Shown here one piece after another: positions 1-63,700 of a stretch of 64,000 nucleotides of DNA. Positions within the stretch are counted from its first letter, which is position 1. Each line of letters begins with the position of its first letter. The notes under the pieces were generated by a model, which worked only from the letters and a program-made list of their open reading frames with translations, made no database searches and was not told the origin of the DNA. The DNA is taken from positions 22,241,655 through 22,305,654 of the forward strand of contig NC_091137.1 in assembly GCF_041381155.1 (NCBI RefSeq). Reading direction: 5' to 3'. Source of the stretch: Argopecten irradians (Eukaryota; Mollusca; Bivalvia; Pectinida; Pectinidae). A program made the position numbers and the translations under genes.

Positions 1-3000
1 GTATGTTCCTGGTATTGACCTGTGTAAATAGTATGTTCCTGGTAATGACTGTGTAAATAGTATGTTCCTGGTATTGACTGTGTAAATAGTATGTTCCTGG
101 TATTGACCCTGTGTAAATAGTATGTTCCTGGTATTGACCGTGTAAATAGTATGTTCCTGGTAATGACTGTGTAAATAGTATGTTCCTGGTATTGACCGTG
201 TAAATAGTATGTTCCTGGTATTGACCATGTAAATAGTATGTTCCTGGTATTGACCGTGTAAATAGTATGTTCCTGGTAATGACCAGAGTAAATAGTATGT
301 TCCTGGTAATGACCGTGTAAATAGTATGTTCCTGGTAATGACCGTGTAAATAGTATGTTCCTGGTAATGACCGTGTAAATAGTATGTTCCTGGTAATGAC
401 AGTGTAAATAGTATGTTCCTGGTATTGACCATGTAAATAGTATGTTCCTGGTAATGACTGTGTAAATAGTATGTTCCTGGTAATGACCGTGTAAATAGTA
501 TGTTCCTGGTATTGACCATGTAAATAGTATGTTCCTGGTATTGACCATGTAAATAGTATGTTCCTGGTATTGACCTGTGTAAAATAGTATGTTCCTGGTA
601 ATGACTGTGTAAATAGTATGTTCCTGGTAATGACTGTGTAAATAGTATGTTCCTGGTAATGACCATGTAAATAGTATGTTCCTGGTATTGACCATGTAAA
701 TAGTATGTTCCTGGTAATGACTGTGTAAATAGTATGTTCCTGGTATTGACCATGTAAATAGTATGTTCCTGGTAATGACTGTGTAAATAGTATGTTCCTG
801 GTAATGACAGTGTAAATAGTATGTTCCTGGTATTGACCGTGTAAATAGTATGTTCCTGGTATTGACCATGTAAATAGTATGTTCCTGGTATTGACCTGTG
901 TAAATAGTATGTTCCTGGTATTGACCATGTAAATAGTATGTTCCTGGTATTGACCATGTAAATAGTATGTTCCTGGTATTGACCTGTGTAAATAGTATGT
1001 TCCTGGTATTGACTGTGTAAATAGTATGTTCCTGGTAATGACCGTGTAAATAGTATGTTCCTGGTATTGACCGTGTAAATAGTATGTTCCTGGTATTGAC
1101 CATTGTAAATGTATATTTCCTGGTATGACCATGTAAATAGTATGTTCCTGGTATTGACTGTGTAAATAGTATGTTCCTGGTATTGACCATGTAAATAGTA
1201 TGTTCCTGGTATTGACCGTGTAAATAGTATGTTCCTGGTATTGACCATGTGTAAATAGTATGTTCCTGGTAATGACCGTGTAAATAGTATGTTCCTGGTA
1301 ATGACCGTGTAAATAGTATGTTCCTGGTATTGACCATGTAAATAGTATGTTCCTGGTATTGACCATGTAAATAGTATGTTCCTGGTAATGACCGTGTAAA
1401 TAGTATGTTCCTGGTAATGACCGTGTAAATAGTATGTTCCTGGTATTGACCATGTAAATAGTATGTTCCTGGTAATGACTGTGTAAATAGTATGTTCCTG
1501 GTAATGACCGTGTAAATAGTATGTTCCTGGTATTGACCATGTAAATAGTATGTTCCTGGTATTGACCGTGTAAATAGTATGTTCCTGGTAGACTGTGTAA
1601 ATAGTATGTTCCTGGTAATGACCGTGTAAATAGTATGTTCCTGGTATTGACCATGTAAATAGTATGTTCCTGGTAATGACCATGTAAATAGTATGTTACT
1701 GGTATTGACCATGTGTAAATAGTATGTTCCTGGTAATGACTGTGTAAATAGTATGTTCCTGGTAATGACTGTGTAAATAGTATGTTCCTGGTAATGACTG
1801 TGTAAATAGTATGTTCCTGGTATTGACCATGTAAATAGTATGTTCCTGGTAATGACTGTGTAAATAGTATGTTCCTGGTAATGACTGTGTAAATAGTATG
1901 TTCCTGGTATTGACCGTGTAAATAGTATGTTCCTGGTATTGACCATGTAAATAGTATGTTCCTGGTATTGACTGTGTAAATAGTATGTTCCTGGTATTGA
2001 CCATGTAAATAGTATGTTCCTGGTAATGACTGTGTAAATAGTATGTTCCTGGTATTGACTGTGTAAATAGTATGTTCCTGGTAATGACCATGTAAATAGT
2101 ATGTTCCTGGTATTGACCGTGTAAATAGTATGTTCCTGGTATTGACCTGTGTAAATAGTATGTTCCTGGTATTGATTGTAAATAGTATGTTCCTGGTATT
2201 GACCATGTAAATAGTATGTTCCTGGTATTGACCGTGTATGTAGTATGTTCCTGGTATTGACTGTGTAAATAGTATGTTCCTGGTATTGACCATGTAAATA
2301 GTATGTTCCTGGTATTGACCATGTAAATAGTATGTTCCTGGTATTGACTGTGTAAATAGTATGTTCCTGGTATTGACCATGTAAATAGTATGTTCCTGGT
2401 AATGACCGTGTAAATAGTATGTTCCTGGTATTGACCGTGTAAATAGTATGTTCCTGGTAATGACAGTGTAAATAGTATGTTCCTGGTATTGACCATGTAA
2501 ATAGTATGTTCCTGGTATTGACCATGTAAATAGTATGATCTTGGTATTGACCATGTAAATAGTATGTTCCTGGTATTGACCGTGTAAATAGTATGTTCCT
2601 GGTAATGACTGTGTAAATAGTATGTTCCTGGTATTGACTGTGTAAATAGTATGTTCCTGGTATTGACCATGTAAATAGTATGTTCCTGGTAATGACCGTG
2701 TAAATAGTATGTTCCTGGTATTGACCGTGTAAATAGTATGTTCCTGGTATTGACCATGTAAATAGTATGTTCCTGGTATTGACCATGTAAATAGTATGTT
2801 CCTGGTAATGACCGTGTAAATAGTATGTTCCTGGTATTGACCATGTAAATAGTATGTTCCTGGTATTGACCATGTAAATAGTATGTTCCTGGTATTGACC
2901 GTGTAAATAGTATGTTCCTGGTATTGACCATGTAAATAGTATGTTCCTGGTATTGACCATGTAAATAGTATGTTCCTGGTATTGACCGTGTAAATAGTAT

Positions 3001-5595
3001 GTTCCTGGTAATGACCGTGTAAATAGTATGTTCCTGGTATTGACCATGTAAATAGTATGTTCCTGGTATTGACCGTGTAAATAGTATGTTCCTGGTAATG
3101 ACTGTGTAAATAGTATGTTCCTGGTAATGACTGTGTAAATAGTATGTTCCTGGTATTGACCATGTAAATAGTATGTTCCTGGTATTGACCGTGTAAATAG
3201 TATGTTCCTGGTAATGACTGTGTAAATAGTATGTTCCTGGTATTGACCATGTAAATAGTATGTTCCTGGTATTGACCATGTAAATAGTATGTTCCTGGTA
3301 TTGACCGTGTAAATAGTATGTTCCTGGTAATGACAGTGTAAATAGTATGTTCCTGGTAATGACTGTGTAAATAGTATGTTCCTGGTATTGACCATGTAAA
3401 TAGTATGTTCCTGGTAATGACCGTGTAAATAGTATGTTCCTGGTATTGACCATGTAAATAGTATGTTCCTGGTAATGACCATGTAAATAGTATGTTCCTG
3501 GTAATGACTGTGTAAATAGTATGTTCCTGGTAATGACTGTGTAAATAGTATGTTCCTGGTATTGACCGTGTAAATAGTATGTTACTGGTATTGACCGTAA
3601 ATAGTATGTTCCTGGTAATGACTGTGTAAATAGTATGTTCCTGGTAATGACTGTGTAAATAGTATGTTCCTGGTAATGACTGTGTAAATAGTATGTTCCT
3701 GGTATTGACTGTGTAAATAGTATGTTCCTGGTATTGACCATGTAAATAGTATGTTCCTGGTAATGACTGTGTAAATAGTATGTTCCTGGTAATGACTGTG
3801 TAAATAGTATGTTCCTGGTATTGACTGTGTAAATAGTATGTTCCTGGTAATGACTGTGTAAATAGTATGTTCCTGGTATTGACCGTGTAAATAGTATGTT
3901 CCTGGTAATGACCATGTAAATAGTATGTTCCTGGTAATGACTGTGTAAATAGTATGTTCCTGGTATTGACCATGTAAATAGTATGTTCCTGGTATTGACC
4001 GTGTAAATAGTATGTTCCTGGTATTGACCATGTAAATAGTATGTTCCTGGTATTGACCATGTAAATAGTATGTTCCTGGTAATGACTGTGTAAATAGTAT
4101 GTTCCTGGTAATGACCGTGTAAATAGTATGTTCCTGGTATTGACCATGTAAATAGTATGTTCCTGGTATTGACCATGTAAATAGTATGTTCCTGGTATTG
4201 AACTGTGTAAATAGTATGTTCCTGGTAATTGACCATGTAAATAGTATGTTCCTGGTAATGACTGTGTAAATAGTATGTTCCTGGTATTGACCATGTAAAT
4301 AGTATGTTCCTGGTATTGACCTGTGTAAATAGTATGTTCCTGGTATTGACCGTGTAAATAGTATGTTCCTGGTAATGACCGTGTAAATAGTATGTTCCTG
4401 GTAATGACCGTGTAAATAGTATGTTCCTGGTATTGACCATGTAAATAGTATGTTCCTGGTATTGACCGTGTAAATAGTATGTTCCTGGTAATGACTGTGT
4501 AAATAGTATGTTCCTGGTAATGACCGTGTAAATAGTATGTTCCTGGTATTGACCATGTAAATAGTATGTTCCTGGTAATGACTGTGTAAATAGTATGTTC
4601 TAATATTGGTAATGACCATGTAAATAGTATGTTCCTGGTATTGACCATGTAAATAGTATGTTCCTGGTATTGACCATGTAAATAGTATGTTCCTGGTAAT
4701 GACTGTGTAAATAGTATGTTCCTGGTAATGACTGTGTAAATAGTATGTTCCTGGTATTGACCGTGTAAATAGTATGTTCCTGGTATTGACCATGTAAATA
4801 GTATGTTCCTGGTATTGACCATGTAAATAGTATGTTCCTGGTAATGACTGTGTAAATAGTATGTTCCTGGTAATGACTGTGTAAATAGTATGTTCCTGGT
4901 AATTGACTGTGTAAATAGTATGTTCCTGGTATTGACCATGTAAATAGTATGTTCCTGGTATTGACCATGTAAATAGTATGTTCCTGGTATTGACCATGTA
5001 AATAGTATGTTCCTGGTAATGACCGTGTAAATAGTATGTTCCTGGTATTGACGTCTGTAAATAGTATGTTCCTGGTATTGACCGTGTAAATAGTATGTTC
5101 CTGGTATGACTGTAAATAGTATGTTCCTGGTATTGACCGTGTAAATAGTATGTTCCTGGTATTGACCGTGTAAAAGTAGTATGTTCCTGGTATTGACCAT
5201 GTAAATAGTATGTTCCTGTGATGACCGTGTATATAGTATGTTCCTGGTATTGACTGTGTAAATAGTATGTTCCTGGTATTGACCATGTAAATAGTATGTT
5301 CCTGGTATTGACCATGAAAATAGTATGTTCCTGGTAATGACTGTGTAAATAGTATGTTCCTTGTATTGACCATGTAAATAGTATGTTCCTGGTATTGACC
5401 TAGTAAATAGTATGTTCCTGGTATTGACCGTGTAAATAGTATGTTCCTGGTATTGACAGTGTAAATAGTATGTTCCTGGTAATGACCGTGTAAATACCTT
5501 ATGTTCCTGGTAATGACTGTGTAAATAGTATGTTCCTGGTGATGACCGTGTAAATAGTATGTTCCTGGTATTGACAGTGTAAATAGTATGTTCCA
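1..5595. repeat. 29-bp satellite array, about 193 units
   Basis: Head-to-tail repeats of a 29-bp unit built around gtatgttcctggtattgacc followed by a short gtgtaaata segment. The array begins before the window. Units are highly uniform; the variation is mostly at two places, ggtaTtg versus ggtaAtg, and the ccgtg / ctgtg / ccatg trinucleotide junction, plus rare indels (for example near 1100, 1590, 2170, 5040, 5100 and 5215). Because 29 is not a multiple of three, three units make a 29-codon open frame, which produces long meaningless reading frames on the minus strand. The array lies upstream of the first visible START-gene exon, so it is either in an intron of that gene or 5' of it; the window cannot decide. 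Confidence 0.97.
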
Positions 5596-25870: not shown

Positions 25871-26122
25871 CATTCGTGATTATTGACAAGAAAAACTGTT
25901 AAGTGTCACTAAAACGCTTACAAACAGTGATGTTGCTAAATCTTCAGCGTTTTGACTACACAATTCGTCTACAAGAATGGGCACGGAAATGTACATGGCG
26001 GATACGTTATGCAGGGCATTTTTGTCAAGTAACTGATGAAAGTAAGAGGCACCGTGTTGCGAGTTGCCCTTTCTGAATTTGAAACACGGTAAACCATGTG
26101 AAACATCTGCCAGTGTCGTCTG

Positions 26123-27132
26123 TTGAAACGCTTTCATAAGCTACAACAGGCCACTGAAAGTGACGCAAGTCTTATAGAATTAATGCGAGTTGTTCAACGT
26201 GGGTGGCCAGAGAGCAAAGAACAACTCTCTCAAGAGGTCCAGAAGTACTTCCCTTTTCGAGAAGAGTTGACTGTCCACAACGGATTGTTATTCAAGAACG
26301 ACCGTGTAGTAGTGCCAATTTCCGAACGCCGTAACATGATGGAAAGAGCACATTCAAGCCATATCGGTCTCCAGGGATGTTTACGAAGAGCAAGGGAGTC
26401 AATATATTGGCCGAATCTGAATCGTGACTTTGAAGAGTTTATTCGGGCATGTGACACGTGCAATGCATATTCGCAGGAGAATAGCAGAGAACCTCTGATA
26501 TCGCATGAGACACCAAGTAGACCATGGGAAAAAGTCGGCGTTGACCTGTTCTACTTGGATGGGAAAGACTACCTTCTAACCGTTGATTATTATTCAGATT
26601 TTTTGAAGTCGACCGTCTCCATGACAAGAAAGGCACTGAGGTAATCAGAAAGTTGAAAGCTCATTTTTCGCGCTATGGTCTACCGTGTGTCGTTATGTCG
26701 GATAATGGGCCACCTTTCAACGGGAAACAATTTTCTGACTTTGCAAAGGCCTATGAGTTCCAACATGTCACTAGTTCGCCAAGATACCCGCAATCTAATG
26801 GGAAAGTGGAAAACGCTATCAAAACCGCCAAACGTATTCTTGAAAAATCCAAGAAGGACAAGACAGATCCCTACTTGGCCATGTTGGATTGGAGGAACAC
26901 ACCAGGGGAAATTGTCAAGTCGTCCCCTGTCCAACGGCTATATGGAAGACGCACCCGTACGCTGTTACCGCTAACAACAAAGCTGTTGGAGCCTAATGTG
27001 GTTCCAAACTCACAAACTCGAAAGGAAATTGAGCGAAGGAAAGACAAACAACAACAATATTATGATAAAGGTACCAAGGCATTGGCTGAACTAATGCCTG
27101 GTGAGAGACAACACCCAAATCTTGCGCCTTGA
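26123..27132 (+). pseudogene. Integrase of the gypsy-type element, split in two frames
   Basis: Two overlapping-family frames, 26123-26644 and 26653-27132, carry an integrase. The first has the zinc-binding HHCC region (HSSHIGLQG ... CDTC) and the beginning of the catalytic core with the first aspartate (GVDLFYLDG). The second continues with the second aspartate in MSDNGPPFNGK and the glutamate in NGKVENAIK, completing the DDE triad, and then a WRNTP region. A frame change around 26600-26645 separates them. The family's function is insertion of the element's cDNA into host DNA; this copy is broken. Confidence 0.88.
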
Positions 27133-41869: not shown

Positions 41870-42110
41870 ATTTAAATCATTAGTGAGACCATCTGTTGAA
41901 TATGCATGTACCATTTGGGACCCTTATCTCAAAACTGACATCTCCAAAATTGAAATGGTCCAACTATAAATCGACATCAATACAGGAAAATGTCATACTT
42001 TCCATGTACGATTATAGACTGGAACAACCTCACATCCAATACTGTACATACCAAAATTTTAGACAGCTTCAAAAACTCTCTCTCATCTTCTAAACTGTCA
42101 ACGTCAACGT
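41870..42110 (+). pseudogene. LINE reverse-transcriptase C-terminal remnant
   Basis: Plus-strand text gives LVRPSVEYACTIWDP followed by KIEMVQL, then after stops and a deletion a frame with SYFPCTIIDWNNLTSN and LDSFKNSL. This is the usual end of non-LTR retrotransposon ORF2 proteins (Jockey/CR1-like). No 5' part is present; it is a short dead 3' fragment. Confidence 0.8.
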
Positions 42111-42590
42111 CAAACGTCAACTATGTTTTTAACCTTATCTATTTCTATGTGGCTATTTCTTTTTTTTTGCAAGTAGTATATTCTATTTGTAGATAATTAT
42201 TTATTTAACACATTGTTTTTCTTCAATTATTCTCATTAGTTTTTAAACTTTCACTAACGGTAAAGTATGAGATAATGTCATTATGATTGTCAATATGAAT
42301 ATAATATTTGCAAGAGTCGAAACAGGGTTTCTTCTAAATCTGTACCTTGTGATATGTTTTTTTGTTTTTTTTTTATTTGATAACAATACACTGTATTTTC
42401 ATTACAAGGGCAATTATCATGACTATAAATTAAACAAAAAAATTAAAATGAAAAAAAAAAATCATCAGTAACATATACATGTATATCAAATAATGAAATG
42501 ATTTTCATTTGCAGATCTGTTTCTGTTAAGCTGGAATAAAGATGGGATACAGATTTGACATAGACTGGTGTAGCTGACTCACCTAATACC

Positions 42591-45500
42591 ATGACCAGTG
42601 CAGTGCCCTTTATGCAGAAGAGAAGTGGGAATGCCCAGTCCCCAAGGGGAGGGGCAGTCGTCTCCTCCTCCCCCGGGAACTCACCACATGTCGTCAACTC
42701 ATTTCAGCCAAACAGTCGTAAAACTGTTGAGGACATCTTAGGTAATTTGGTTATTTTCACCATTTCAACATTCGGTACATTTGTGCTACAATCTTCTTGT
42801 GATTTATCTGACAAACTCTAGTAGCTAGCAACATAGGCTTAACCATATTATATAATCAAATGATTTACTATTAGTAAAAGCAAATCTTTATTGCTTGTGT
42901 TTACTGGAATGTTCAAGAGGCTGACTCATACCAGAGTACAATATCAACATGGATCACTGTATTATATCAATGGAAGATGACTTGAACAAACAAGACGTTA
43001 ATTTCACTTTTTTTACAGATTGTCTGAAGGACTTGAAGTCAGATTTTGAAGCCAACAGTCAACCTATAACTGATGACAACCAGACCCTTCATCGCTTCTG
43101 TGCCAAACTGGAATATCTTCTACAGGCCAATATGAAGGGTAGGACAGACATGACCAACAGGCATCTTATCATTGCATTGTTATTCTGATTCTCTTTAATT
43201 TTCCATATTATTGTAAACTACTTGTACTGCTAAGCAAGATTGATTGTACAATATACATTTGTAACAGGAGGGGAAAGTGTAGATAACTTTCTACAAGTAT
43301 GCCAAATTTGATTAAAATCCACGCCTAGATGAGATCAGGAAAAATCTAATAAAAAATGTAAAATTACATAGAATATATAGGGAAAAATAAAAATTACGAA
43401 GACTTTTGGCACATGGCTGTAGATCTGTTCTTTTCTCTTTTTTTTTTCATTTGAAGTAATATTGTAATGACATATGGTTATTCTACAGAATACGAGCGTT
43501 AGGTGCATATCTTCTTAAGACCTCGATCAGACCAGTTAATTTTAGTTAGCAAAAACATATTCTAGATCTATTACATAAAATTTTGTAGATTACCTTGGAT
43601 CTCTTTTCCTTAGGTTTGAGCACCTAATTAGTTTATTTATTCACTCTGACACACAACAGTGTGTTACAAGATGTCAAATGATTACTTATTGTAATACATA
43701 GTCATACACGACACATGGCGTACACTCTAATTTAAATATCAGAGTTCTTTAATCAATGCATGATTTGAAAAATTAACAAGAACATTAAACAGTCAATGAA
43801 TAAGAGCAGTAACATATATATATGACTTGATCTATAAAGATCAAGGACCTATATGAGTATATGAGAAGGATAAGTCACACTGGGTTTTGGGGAAGTCCAA
43901 GACAGGCGCTTTTGTGTTTGTGCACTGACCGTGACGTTGGGCGACGCCTGATCCTTTGATTTAGCTTGCAGGTGCGAGGGTTACCGTCTTACTTTCTGAA
44001 GCGGGTCGTCATTGCAAGAGCTGTGGTATTTTTTAAAGAAAATTTAAGACATATCCTCTAAATCTTCCGTTATTAAAGCAAGTGATAAGCGTTATGAAAT
44101 TTAATAAACTTTACAGAGGTGTTTCATTTGATTCGATAAGATAAGTATTTATTGAGAAAAATGGTTTTTATTCCCGGTTCATAAGCGTCTCGCGTGGTGT
44201 TTAATAATGTAAAGAGACAGTCACGTATCCTTCTCACTTATAAATCCTTGATAAAGATTAATATCGAATAATACATGTAATTTTTCTAAATCTGCAAATT
44301 TTTTAATAGGTTTTATCATTAAATATCTTGAACATTCGTTGCATTTTTTCTTGACTTGGGTGTGTATAGGCCTAGTAGTATTTTTGAATAAATGTATTTC
44401 TTAAAGTGATTCACCGATTCCCATTCAGACACTTACTAACCACTTCCGGTAATAAGTATGGTTAGCATAGTGTATCGTAGACAAACCTTTTTCTTTTATT
44501 GTAAAAGGTCGTCATCGGTCCTTATCCAAATTATTATTGTTTGGTCTCTGTTGGGATTGCCTGCTTTAAGATACGAGTTTATCTATCGTTTATATGATAT
44601 GTATGAGGTGCGGTGCTGAGGAAAACTCGGCTATGCTTTCGTTGGGCTACTACACAAATGACAATTTCAACAAAATGTTAGTACGAGTTACTTCCCTTGG
44701 ATAGAATTAATTTGGAATGTCAATAATATCCAAAATCATACGTAAGTCAACAATTTATATAAATATAAAAAATATGAGAAATATTTAAACATGGATATGT
44801 TGACCATAAGATGTTTTTGTTAGTAAATTATAACATCAGTTACTGTATATTTATAATTGTTTGAGAACCTTAGTCACCTCACATTAGTCATACCAGATTT
44901 TATTTAAATTCTTTCGGGCAGGTATAGAATACTAGCTTTGCGCAGTGGCGGTACCATAGTCGATGAGGATTTTCCGAGACGTGGTTATTGCTAGTTGAAA
45001 ACTATACCCAATACCCCGCACTGTGGCCTGAAATATGGCCGCAAGTGCAATTTTTGAACGCTCCTACGGGAGCAACTAAAATCCAATGTAAAAATAGAAA
45101 CCTGGAGATTGAAGGAAGCACAGCAGGAATATAAAGTGAATAGTCGGGCAAAGAAAATCAGTCTAAATGCGTTCATTGGCCTTCCAAAAGTTCTCAAATA
45201 TTAATACGACGGCCAAGTTCTGCTTATGTTTCCCAGTTCTGACCATTAAAGTAAAGGAAAGTTGAAAGCATTAAAATCGAGGCTGCGTGGAAATGTAACC
45301 ACGGACATAGTCAGCCGGGAGGACGTTTTAGGATTCCTATACTTTAATCTGATTTCTTCACACGCAGACAGATTTTGGTGAGAGATTTTATTTTTCTATT
45401 TCATAAGAAATTATAATAGAATATCTCTCGTCAAAATCTGTCTGCATACAAAGAAATTAATTTTAAGTATATGAATCCTTAAACGTCCTCCCGGCTGACT

Positions 45501-57700: not shown

Positions 57701-60700
57701 CAAGATGGCTGCCAAATCTAAGATGGCTGCCATGATTTTTAGTTTACGTCGGAGCACAATTAAGAATTTCACCAATACTTTGACAGCATTTTCACCAATA
57801 TTTTATAGAATTTCACTATGTTTTAGCAAAATGTTAAGAGTAATGAATATTCTTATCTTATTAAAAGAATAATAAAATTATTAGGTCAAATATAATTAAA
57901 TCAAATTTACCACACATTTACAGTGATCAAAAGTTTCATATATGAACAAATAACTCATAATATTTATAATGTTATTGTATTTCTTACCAAACAATTTTGG
58001 GTACAAAAGGTGTGGGTTTTTGGCAGCTGACTGCAACTACACAGGCTTTTGTAATCTTTAATGGGTTACATTGTTCTAAAATGATATTATGCTTACTGAT
58101 AACGTGTGGTGCAGGACTAATTGCTCATGAAATTGACAATTGTTTGAACATTTCACATTTACCAATAAGATTTGTAGCTTCTCTTTAAGTGTGTTATGTC
58201 TGATTACCAATCCTTTTTTTCATTTGAAAGAATACAGATAATCCCACCTCATCTAATAACAAATACTGGGTATCCGTACTGTTCCTTTATGAATTACATT
58301 GCAGCATCTATCAAAGGTTGTTTGCTGTTATCCATCAAATATTAGCATAGCTAGTTTTAGGGATGTAATTATGCCAGGTTCATAAGTTTGTTTTATTTAT
58401 TTATTTTTTTTTTTCAGTTTTACATCATTTTGGAGTTCTATTAGCCCTTTGTATCATGCATGTCTGTTTTGTTTCAGACCAGAAAAGAATTGGAGTCCGA
58501 AAAATCACTTGTTTTATCTCTTAAGGTAGGGTCAGGCTAGAAATTAATGTCTTTGTAAGATTACCGTATAACAACCATCGTATGTATCATATACAGGATA
58601 ACTAAGGGCTGATTGAGAAACTTGTACCACCGTCTGATATATACCGTATCTAAGCTGATGCATGACGTATATAGATGATGACTGCTGGGTAAATTATGAC
58701 CTTGACTTTGTATCAGAAAAGGTTTTAAACTAAAAACTTCATCTTAAATGACAATATAGTAGTATTTCCAAATTAAATGACAGTAGGAAGTTTTACACTT
58801 AACTTACACACTAGAATAAATCAAACAAACTCCACCTATATAGTATATATACTTTACCTTTTAGTCAGCACGTACAAATGTTGTATTACTACCTTTTAGT
58901 CAGCATGTACAAATGTTGTATTACAAACTTAAATCGCCATTTTTCATTACAATAATTCCAACATTCAAACTCAAGTTTTGAACAAACAAAAAATGGCTGT
59001 AAAAAAATGATAGAAAAAATAAATCTGCAAGCTATAAGAGTTATTTGTGTTTTTGATCATTGCATGAACAAGTTTCTTTTTCCAAGTTGAATTGTATGCA
59101 TGATTCCTTCCTTTAAGGGGTGTTTTAGTTCTTGTTTTTCAGAGTCATGGTAGTGTATCATATTTTAAGTTCTATAAGAAATTCTTTAATCAGTATTCTA
59201 TTACTAGTCTGCTCTGCACCACTATTGGATTGGGCAACTTTTCTGACACTAGATTCATGCCTACACTGTAATGTATTTCGGAGATTGAAAATGCAAAAGA
59301 AATTTTTATAGTATTAATTTGCACTAAATTGAGCTTTGGATCAGTGCATAAAACTAACAGTAATACACATGTACTATAAACAAACTGTCTTTATTGTCTA
59401 TGTATAAAAGTTTCCTTATAACACTGATGTTTAATCTGTTGAAATGACAGTTGTCTGTCATAGAGTTTACGTGTCTCATAGTAAAAGTGTTAAGCTTTCT
59501 TAAGTCAGCTTTATAAGATCCAACAGCTTAAAATATCAGTATGGTTTTATGGGCTTTATACACTGGCATAATTCCTCTGAACTATCAGTGCTCTAAAGAC
59601 TGTTGTAGTGCTAATTCATCATTGCACAATTCCAGTAAATTCTATAAGTTACATCCAACAAAAGGTATTACAGCATATAGAGATATGGAATAATTCAGTT
59701 TGACTTTAATAATTTGGAATTTTTCTATTTTCTGTTAAAGAGCCAGCTTGAGGAAGCTGAACGGCGACTAAATGATGCTGGAATGGAGAGTCAAAGTGAG
59801 ATCTCTGAACTCAAAAAAGATACAGAGCAACTCAAAAAGAAACTTATCAAACTTATAAGGTAAAACAAACTTATCTTTTCACATAATAGTGTATCATATT
59901 ATTTTTATTTCTCTAATCCTGATCAGAAAGAGGTCTTTTACAATTTTTTCAATGAATTGTTGCAATTTTGGAAATAGAAAAAGTTTTCAATGTTTCACAG
60001 AAATTCTATGATAACAAAACATCATGAAAGGTGGGGGGAGTTTTAAAAGTTACATGTTAAATATGTAATTCCAATATTGATACTTACTGTCCCATTCTAA
60101 TACTTTTATCTCTTACAAATATTTTTGATTTAGAAAAAATAAGTAAATATAACTAGTTGACATTGTTTGGTTGTCATGTCATGGTAACAGGGAGAAGGAT
60201 ACACTATGGCAGAAGTCGGATAAGCTAGCTCACCATCAGAAAGAGAAAGCTAAGGAGAAATGGATGGATGACAAAGCAGTGCTCAACTGTCTTGGCTGTA
60301 AAACAGAATTCTCATTCACAGTAAGAAAGGTCAGTGATTAGGTGCTGAATGTCTGTAAGTTTAAAGGTCAAGGAATTGGAAGGGACAATTCAGTCTAAGA
60401 GAACATTAAAATTTGTACATATATCAGAAAAAAACAGTTCTAATGGAAATTAGATCAGTCTGTTTTACTGTGATATGCCAGAAAAGTCCATGGTGGTGAA
60501 ATGCTCAAACTCGCTCACTGTCCGCCATTACACTTTGTGGTCGAACATCTTGTATGCCAAACCCTGTCTCTTGCTTGTAGAGTAATGCTACTTTTGTCTA
60601 GAACTGCTCAAATCGCTCTGACAGTAGTGTGTTTACCTTATTAGGTGAATTGTCTTGCCTAAAAAATATTCTAGCATCTCCAAAGAGGTTATGTTATTCA

Positions 60701-63700
60701 TTTGTTTAACATGCGTGACTTTGGCTCGGATATGGGTACAGCTTACATATTGACATGCTTAATGGTATTGATCAACGATTTGTAATTACTACAGTATCAA
60801 TTAAAATACTAAACAATGAGGTGGAATTTGTCAATATTTAATGTTATATGTTTCATAAGAAATGTAGAACAATACATTTATGCCATATTTTGCTTCTTGG
60901 TTATGTAAAAGAATTTGCCTGAGTGAATTGTCCCTTTAACCAATGTCATGGTCATTCAGAATATTTATACCTTGTATAAATATTAATATATACCTTGTAT
61001 AAATATTAATATATACCTTGTATAAATTAATATATACCTTGTATAAATATTAATAAGTATTATGTAATTTAAATCATTTACATTGTATTCTGTTTCTTTT
61101 TGATTATTATACTCAACTTTATGTCAAAGTTGTTGGGCTTTTAAAAGCTATGAATGATTTTATTGATAAATATTGCAATGGACTTCAATACAAATTTGTT
61201 TTCTTTTGTCTTGATAATAAAGGGACATAATAAAAGGTAAGTGTCTTTAAAATTACAGATGAATTAAACCTGTATCAGAGACTAATTTGCCATGAATTGC
61301 TTTCCTAATGATTTGTGATTTGTTGACAGCATCACTGTCGCATGTGTGGGAAGATCTTCTGTTTCAACTGTAGTAACAACTGGATCATGACAGCCCACAG
61401 CAGGTATGTTATGTACTGACAGCCCACAGCAGGTATGTTATGTACTGACAGCCCACAGCAGGTATGTTATGTACTGACAGCCCACAGCAGGTATGTTATG
61501 TACTGACAGCCCACAGCAGGTATGTTATGTACTGACAGTCCACAGCAGTTATGTTATGTACTGACAGCCCACAGCAGGTATGTTATGTACTGACAGCCCA
61601 CAGCATGTATGTTATGTACTGACAGCCCACAGCAGGTATATTATGTACTGACAGCCCACAGCAGGTATGTTATGTACTGACAGCCCACAGCAGGTATGTT
61701 ATGTACTGACAGCCCACAGCAGGTATGTTATGTACTGACAGCCCACAGCAGGTATGTTATGTACTGACTGCCCACAGCAGGTTTGTTATGTACTGACAGC
61801 CCACAGCAGGTATGTTATGTACTGACAGCCCACAGCAGGTATGTTATGTACTGACAGCCCACAGCAGGTATGTTATGTACTGACAGCCCACAGCAGGTAT
61901 GTTATGTACTGACAGCCCACAGCAGGTATGTTATGTACTGACCATGCTGATTAGTTAACAAGTGGTGATGGAAAAATTATTCAAGACAGAAATGAAACGC
62001 TGATTGGTTGATAGTGTAGAAATTAAATATTCATTTTCTATAAAGCTCAAGAACAAGACATTCTATACATTTTTAATTTATGAAAATTTGTTTGAATTAA
62101 GTAATTTTCAATTTATAGGCTTCAAATATTAGATTATTTCTGATTTGAGTAGCCTATTTTGTTACTATACTGTATATTGTTAAATTGTGCGAGTGTAAAA
62201 TTTTGCGATTTACTGTTTTGGTTTTTGCCAATTATCTACATGTATATAGCATCTGAAAGCTTCATTTATATGACAGGCTTAAATATGTCAAACCATGAAT
62301 TTGATAAATTTTGCAAGGTAATAGCCTTCGCGAATTTCAATGGATCCATGAAATCAGCGAAATTAAAACCCATGCAAATATAAGCAACTATACAGTAAGA
62401 CATGACGGGTAATGTGTACCAAATCTTGGTGTATGTAGTGTGCTTTTACAAACACCATGATATATGAATGAAGAAGCCATACTTTTATACAATTTGAGAG
62501 TAACCTCCCCTTGTTACAGTAAGAAGTCCCGAGCCTGTAACCTGTGTTACCTATGGTATAGCCAGGTAGAATCAGACCAGGCTGATACTCAAGATGTCGA
62601 CGACAATGACTTTGAGGAAACACTAGAACTTCCTCATTGTAAGTTCCGAACAACTCGCGGACAGTCGCTGGAACAAGCCCCCGGCGATCAGTCAGCTAGT
62701 CGAGATCCAAGAATGGATGAGAGTACTTCCACTATAGAGTCCTCAGGTGATTGTTATCTTGTGACTAATTGAATTTCTTGTTATTATGAAAAAAGATCTT
62801 TTAGTCCTGAAATATTGTTTTGAACTAATATCTTTTATAACTTATCTACCGTATTTGACCCATTAAGTGCTCATGTCCCTATAAGCACCTCTCCCCAATT
62901 TGAGGACCCAATTTCAATAGCCCATGTATAAATTACGACCAAAACTGTTTTGTTTGCACTCTGCTTTGAAATAATTTCGTTTTATTAAGCACCATTTCAT
63001 TATTCATTCTTTTAAATGCCCTGGGTACTTATTGGGTCGAATATGGTACCTATATCAAATTTATAGTATATCTTTCTTCGATTTCACATATGTCTAGTTA
63101 CCTTCATTGATTTGTGTCGTATGTAATTCTAGAACCAACAGATCAGTCCTCTATGGACGGATCAAGAACAGACAAAGACGAGGAAGGAACATACACTGTT
63201 CCTGGTCAGGTCGCCACGGACATCTCTATAGCATTGGTCGGCGAAAACGAGACGGACGAAAACAAGGTCAAGAAAACAGCTACTGGGTCAGTTTGTTGTT
63301 TCTTGTGAAGAGAAATATTGATGATCAGCATTAAGTTAAGGAACTTCACTAACTTTTATAAGGCTTTCTTTTGAAGAATGATAAGTTTAGGAATTCATTC
63401 TGTATCAGATTATTTCATGTTGAGGAAACAGAAGTCTGATGTGCTCTAAGCTGGGTAGGATAGTATTATTGAATGAAATTGTTTCATGGTTGTTTTAAAA
63501 ACAATAAAAATTCTATGTTTGATATTTGTAGTTTTTGTTTTCTAATATTTTAATAACCAATACCATAACAATGTGTTGACAGGGAGGATGAGGAAGGAGC
63601 AGCAGCCCCATCTAAAGATGATATCTTCCACATGATCAGTGATGAAGAGATCTCCAAATCTCTGACTGAAGAGGCACCACCAGTCAGCATAGATCCCACG

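Follow-up and report, generated by a model that had tools for sequence, protein, structure and literature searches.

A minisatellite of near-identical splice donors at the FYVE exon of a FYCO1-like gene in the bivalve Argopecten irradians

When the donor of an exon is followed by a long series of its own copies, which of them is used, and what would become of the message if a later one were taken? The question is raised by a minisatellite that lies across an exon-intron boundary of Argopecten irradians, in a stretch of 64,000 bases (C4:22241655-22305654; 35.4% G+C, zero N) here called the window, whose numbering is used below. The locus is akin to a classic splicing experiment set up by nature, with one exon, 19 near-identical donors in a row and only the first of them predicted to be productive. 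The assembly searched comprises 846 Mb in 1508 contigs, and the evidence for the array comes from genomic DNA of one haplotype of one species.

The array and its host gene

A single array was found at the locus by TRF, at 61388-61942 of the + strand, with a period of 29, 19.1 copies, 97% matches and a score of 1068. Read unit by unit, it consists of 19 head-to-tail 29-bp units (61388-61938) and a 4-bp partial copy, TGAC, which carries the repeat tract to 61942 and not to 61940, where the original prediction had ended it. For a 551-base array at 97% identity a chance origin is excluded, and the whole-genome search returned one full match only to the array locus in the assembly. The unit straddles the exon-intron boundary, holding 16 coding bases of the exon end and 13 bases of the intron start, an arrangement that had been proposed beforehand and that is borne out by the reading frame and by the junction with a Mytilus homologue (see below).

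Fifteen of the 19 units are identical to TGACAGCCCACAGCAG/GTATGTTATGTAC (full unit TGACAGCCCACAGCAGGTATGTTATGTAC), and the six substitutions seen are confined to four units, at unit positions 7 and 17 in unit 6, 16 in unit 8, 21 in unit 9, and 5 and 19 in unit 14. The donor is changed at +1 (G>T) in unit 6, at -1 (G>T) in unit 8, at +5 (G>A) in unit 9 and at +3 (A>T) in unit 14; the two further substitutions fall outside the 9-base donor. Behind the genuine donor, GTATGT at 61404-61409 (+; donor 1), the unit reading and donor scores place 18 copies between 61433, the first G of the first copy, and 61926, that of the last (+). These had been described as 18 near-identical donors, with donor-critical bases lost from four units. 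The 18 copies exist and the four damaged units were verified, but the copies intact over the 9-base donor number 14, not 18. The donors of units 2-5, adjoining the exon, are perfect. By a donor matrix, donor 1 and the intact copies score 9.8 bits, and four of the gene's neighbouring donors reach 8.6, 8.6, 5.7 and 3.2 on the same scale; the donor copies were also scored by U1 duplex energy.

The exon edges of the host gene were set by reading frame, AG/GT and homologue. Six exons from 60191 join into one open frame, and the 244 residues encoded from 60192 to the window end served as the homology query. The coding exon that precedes the array-bearing one (60191-60329, +) encodes the first half of the FYVE zinc finger; it was placed by the spliced frame and by tblastn to residues 40-86 of the Mytilus protein P0001, its start being set by the AG at 60189-60190 and its donor lying at 60330. 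The 74-base FYVE exon (61330-61403, +) ends CACAGCAG, and according to the frame, the homologue and Pfam PF01363 the exonic part of unit 1 is formed by the final 16 bases of this exon. The next coding exon (62520-62746, +; frame, tblastn and acceptor scoring) encodes the last zinc pair of the FYVE domain (CNLC), and of the AGs scored by matrix in the array-bearing intron the one at 62518-62519, its acceptor, ranks first. Further exons of the same spliced reading frame lie at 63133-63286, at 63583-63699 and from 63978 on (all +).

The FYVE zinc finger was recognised by Pfam (PF01363, 64.6 bits vs a cut-off of 27.8). A search of 5.8 billion proteins gave 164 candidates and, at E <= 0.001, one homologue, the partial Mytilus galloprovincialis protein P0001, which is 43% identical to the query. 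P0001 carries PF01363 and PF13897, the latter of which we take to be a GOLD-type domain, and a C-terminal GOLD domain is indicated via this homologue only, its residues 240-347 matching 63976-64670 (window numbering, past the window end) by tblastn. For an N-terminal RUN domain, three ORFs at 41954-43185, scanned singly and unassembled, gave zero Pfam matches. Judged by these sequence features the gene is FYCO1-like, a name chosen over FYCO1 because RUN-domain evidence is lacking. When exon 61330-61403 is joined to 62520, the 16-residue junction peptide aligns ungapped with P0001 (QTAHSSKKSRACRMCF / TAHSSKKSRACRMCF). The flanking introns are 1000 and 1116 bases long, the downstream one falling to 594 bases if the last donor is used, and the exon is 74 bases long with donor 1 vs 103 to 596 with the later donors. 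Elsewhere in the window, retroelement integrase remnants were seen at 26102-27132 (+), with Integrase_H2C2 above and rve below cut-off.

Donor choice and the fate of the message

All 19 donors were joined to 62520 in a scripted test. Donor 1, the sole one in frame, gave a frame open to 62746, and the other 18 all shared the same 12-residue end followed by a stop at TGA 61417-61419 (+), which is in frame if any later donor is used. The truncated product retains positions 1-46 of the 67 of the FYVE profile and lacks the last Cys pair together with all that follows it. The original prediction had located both the genuine donor at 61404 and the TGA at 61417-61419, had reserved the preserved frame for the first donor and had expected later donors to cut the FYVE domain short, and in each of these respects it proved correct. 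As further exon junctions follow the stop, decay is expected; by the usual rule, transcripts from decoy donors are probably subject to it.

We consider it likely that the locus is a mirage minisatellite, in which the first donor is used and the array is tolerated as intron growth rather than acting as a regulator. Mirages are minisatellite-like tandem duplications of exon-intron boundaries in amphioxus, reported for two globin genes (BflGb6/BflGb9) with a unit of 150-160 bp (PMC3087553). In the passages drawn on, an amphioxus Adh3 mirage is cited with units of 10-72 bp and with length and somatic instability, and the Adh3 data and globin RT-PCR are taken to suggest that regular splicing is undisturbed by mirages (PMC3087553). 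The PGBD5 mirages, of 60 and 108 bp, abut 5' splice sites, and their copy numbers differ between two genome versions, at 2 or 7 and at 3 or 6; the Adh and troponin C (TnC) mirages are cited there, again in the passages drawn on, as yielding no aberrant mRNAs (PMC3902484).

By the predicted gene structure the FYCO1-like array is such a mirage: it is a tandem repeat of minisatellite size, its unit spans the boundary and includes exonic bases, and its first copy abuts the authentic splice site. Similarly to the amphioxus mirages, the unit holds exon end and intron start (in amphioxus also intron end and exon start) and many spare copies retain AG/GT signals, and as in PGBD5 the first copy adjoins the 5' splice site. 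Unlike them, the array consists of 19 near-identical 29-bp units, resides in a bivalve and is known here from sequence alone. In the open-licence literature searched, as far as its passages were available, no mirage named outside amphioxus was found, which is not proof of absence in print. Earthworm repeats are described within an intron, with no mention of splice-site duplication in the part of the paper drawn on (PMC12783039), and amphioxus huntingtin contains tandem repeats and, in the passages drawn on, no mirage (PMC2206037). The gain of introns through tandem duplication of genomic AGGT segments, a process reviewed in PMC3443670 (drawn on in part), is similar in that the duplicated AG/GT segment gives several potential donors and acceptors, but that process turns exonic sequence into a new intron, whereas here it is the 5' edge of an intron that has grown.

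The array would have originated when the 29-bp stretch over the FYVE exon end and intron start was duplicated in tandem. Before expansion the sequence probably read ATCA-TGAC...GTAC-TGACCATG, so that exon and intron would each have held one TGAC at a distance of 29 bases, and the initial duplication was therefore probably caused by slippage or end joining at this 4-bp match. Expansion to 19 copies would have followed, with homogeneity maintained through slippage or conversion. Copy 1 would then serve as the working exon end and donor, and the remaining 18 as intronic decoys. Donor 1 is expected in nearly all transcripts because the exon would be recognised as a unit, the upstream acceptor is closer to donor 1 than to any later donor and both introns are long; by analogy, equal competing donors are probably chosen by nearness within the first-recognised unit. 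Transcripts from later donors would run into the stop at 61417, with degradation as their probable fate.

The analogy is with minigenes in which two identical strong CAG/guaagu donors were placed in series with 365-base introns, the upstream donor being exclusive in 5/5 exon-defined minigenes (PMC9225289). According to the passages drawn on, the upstream donor was also preferred with near-equal donors and long introns, larger minigenes skipped the exon when both donors were weakened, and about 60% of unfiltered human events favoured the downstream donor (PMC9225289). As in those constructs, one exon between long introns has several equal donors in a row at its end; the scallop-family gene differs in having 19 donors vs two and in being from a mollusc, the minigenes described in these passages being human-based (PMC9225289).

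The substitutions allow a view of possible selection. Four of the six fall at the five donor-critical positions (binomial P 0.0099; over all nine donor positions P 0.079), in a test that is post hoc, chosen after seeing the data, and based on a tiny set (n=6). Such a bias hints at selection acting against decoys and would thereby imply occasional decoy use. The perfect state of units 2-5, on the other hand, fits neutrality better than such selection.

It is unlikely that the array effaces itself, each unit being a miniature intron (GTATGT ... TACTGAC ... CAG/GTATGT) removed by recursive splicing. A jump from donor 1 to a later CAG/GT would recreate the same exon end beside a fresh donor and leave the message unchanged, and such internal splicing, if true, would be invisible there. 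Intact units do contain AG/GT, and the heptamer TACTGAC, branch-point-like by the branch-point consensus, is formed at the unit joints. On a crude matrix the unit AGs score 4.5, 5.5 and 4.8 bits, and six of the gene's acceptors have 5.2, 5.3, 9.5, 1.2, 5.2 and 7.2; being thus similar to some real acceptors, they make splicing inside the array possible. However, the distance from the branch A to the AG, by eye, is just 10-13 bases, and a pyrimidine tract is absent from the unit. The 29 bases of a unit are below the usual length of animal introns, and therefore only multi-unit jumps could work.

It is quite improbable that the decoys compete with donor 1 as a rheostat, the length of the array setting the share of truncated or decayed transcripts and hence the level of FYCO1-like protein. 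The 14 intact downstream donors, equal in strength to donor 1 (9.8 bits by the donor matrix), and the in-frame stop that truncates every decoy product would suit such a role. The exon-definition data, as far as drawn on, favour the upstream donor (PMC9225289), and the amphioxus mirages are reported in the passages drawn on to be neutral for splicing (PMC3087553, PMC3902484). Of the two alternatives put forward originally, the choice of the first among equal donors is thus favoured by these sources, and for the tuning of output by copy number no evidence was obtained here. Should RNA reveal that donor 1 is cleanly used, exon-definition choice would be demonstrated in an extreme natural setting; if the use is not clean, repeat number would be a plausible modifier of gene output.

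Related arrays in a DHTKD1-like gene

With the FYCO1-like array as query, the whole-genome search gave ten matches besides the array itself, all at C3:35004240-35007648 and 67-71% identical. The locus (L006, about 35.006-35.009 Mb, minus strand) is DHTKD1-like, the best PDB match being DHTKD1 (E 1.5e-44), and contains two arrays, both of them met via similarity search and not through random sampling. The unit of the first is 110 bp long, is present in 5.3 copies and spans both the donor GTAGGT and the coding end NHMSEQQTGFLE / IPLNHMSEQQTGFLE. Its five donors are spaced by 115, 108, 113 and 110 bases; the next exon is reached in frame from the first alone, donors 2-5 meeting one common stop. 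Judged by its predicted exon structure, this array is a clear second mirage with the same anatomy as the FYCO1-like one. The second array has a 29-bp unit in at least 83 copies and begins at the donor of the exon ...SSCRMERFLQ/GTAAAC. Its units end TCGTTGCAG and the exon ends TTCTTACAG, and an exonic origin is possible. Mirage minisatellites would thereby be extended from amphioxus, the sole group in the passages drawn on, to a bivalve and to at least two of its genes.

An assembly artefact, with the array length or its placement at the exon edge misassembled, is very unlikely. The array is known from a single assembly, but four of its units share out six private substitutions, its edge is a clean partial copy of 4 bp, the contig spans 53 Mb, 551 bases would be short relative to long reads, and the same architecture recurs in the unrelated DHTKD1-like gene. 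That a dispersed satellite landed at the exon edge is hardly credible: the 29-bp array of the DHTKD1-like gene is indeed 67-71% alike and the two units score 11.0 vs a shuffled maximum of 9.0 (60 shuffles), but this is modest for a whole-genome best match, the unit includes this exon's own coding end, and no other place was more than 71% alike among the matches listed (best candidates of the whole-genome search, very common words skipped).

Donor-motif arrays in the genome

Throughout the genome, three AGGTAWGT in series (gaps 4-34) were counted 5785+5957 times vs 1182+1103 for the reversed pattern, and the one-letter variant AGGAAWGT 2014+1139 times vs 646+1305 for its own reversed control. 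These are counts of overlapping unit triples, overdispersed and dominated by long arrays, and among the matches listed the AGGTAWGT triples are all in one large array. As singles outside arrays, in a 184-kb sample of both strands, AGGTAWGT was found 22 times, its reverse 24 times and AGGAAWGT only 11 times, and the corrected excess over AGGAAWGT is therefore about 1.9-fold (small numbers). AGGTATGT at a gap of 20-22 gave 321+315 vs 27+15, in six arrays among the matches listed. The counts hint at an over-representation of donor-motif arrays, about 5-fold over the reversed control and about 1.9-fold over the variant, which is plausible and makes the question of minisatellites on splice donors testable.

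In the window and sixteen 10-kb stretches, AGGT was the top 4-mer in array units, occurring in 10/16 arrays vs 3.4 expected (uncorrected over 118 words). The 16 arrays include the FYCO1-like array itself and two pieces of one array; with those left out, AGGT was present in 8/14 vs 3.2 expected (P 0.006, letter shuffling). A dinucleotide shuffle gave a mean of 6.8 (P 0.32), to which little weight is given, as it hardly alters such short units. We doubt, without dismissing it, that minisatellites here preferentially carry or start from AG/GT, with donor arrays as a genome-wide splicing-linked class of which the exon-edge mirages are the visible tip. Candidate processes for such a class would be exon-definition tolerance, recursive removal of units and U1 binding that shields long AT-rich introns from early polyadenylation.

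The idea that AGGT arrays usually lie at exon edges found no support in the sample, where 0/8 of the other AGGT-bearing arrays were seen to abut an exon. For seven of them no abutting exon was found upstream in three frames read by eye over 240 bases (125 in one; the flank of the L044 array still consists of repeat copies, its edge not being reached), and the FYVE exon starts 275 bases beyond the end of the eighth (window 60966-61055).

The window begins with a 29-bp array (GTATGTTCCTGGTATTGACCGTGTAAATA) of 324 copies and 9.4 kb, covering window 1-5594 and L056 from 1175. A link between this array and the FYCO1-like one, suggested by the equal period and a few letters in common, was rejected, the circular alignment score being 5.0 vs a maximum of 9.0 in shuffles (n=60). 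A coding exon 323 bases upstream of it (L056 up to 852) resembles a START domain by eye.

Three other arrays have splice-signal-like units. At L041:135-1990 there is a 42-bp array whose reverse-strand unit, with CTTAACTCTAACACAG/GTATAA, has branch-point-like and acceptor-like letters beside a donor-like one; no exon was seen at its edge. The 29-bp array at C1:60847658-60849083 has the unit GTATGTTGATCTTATCTCATGTCATTCAG in two listed places and resembles a whole intron in miniature, with GT at one end and CAG at the other. In the large array at C1:2890660-2897427, with a 41-bp unit, each listed copy contains AGGTAAGT behind a pyrimidine-rich run that ends in ATAG, and the unit resembles an acceptor, a 9-base exon and a donor.
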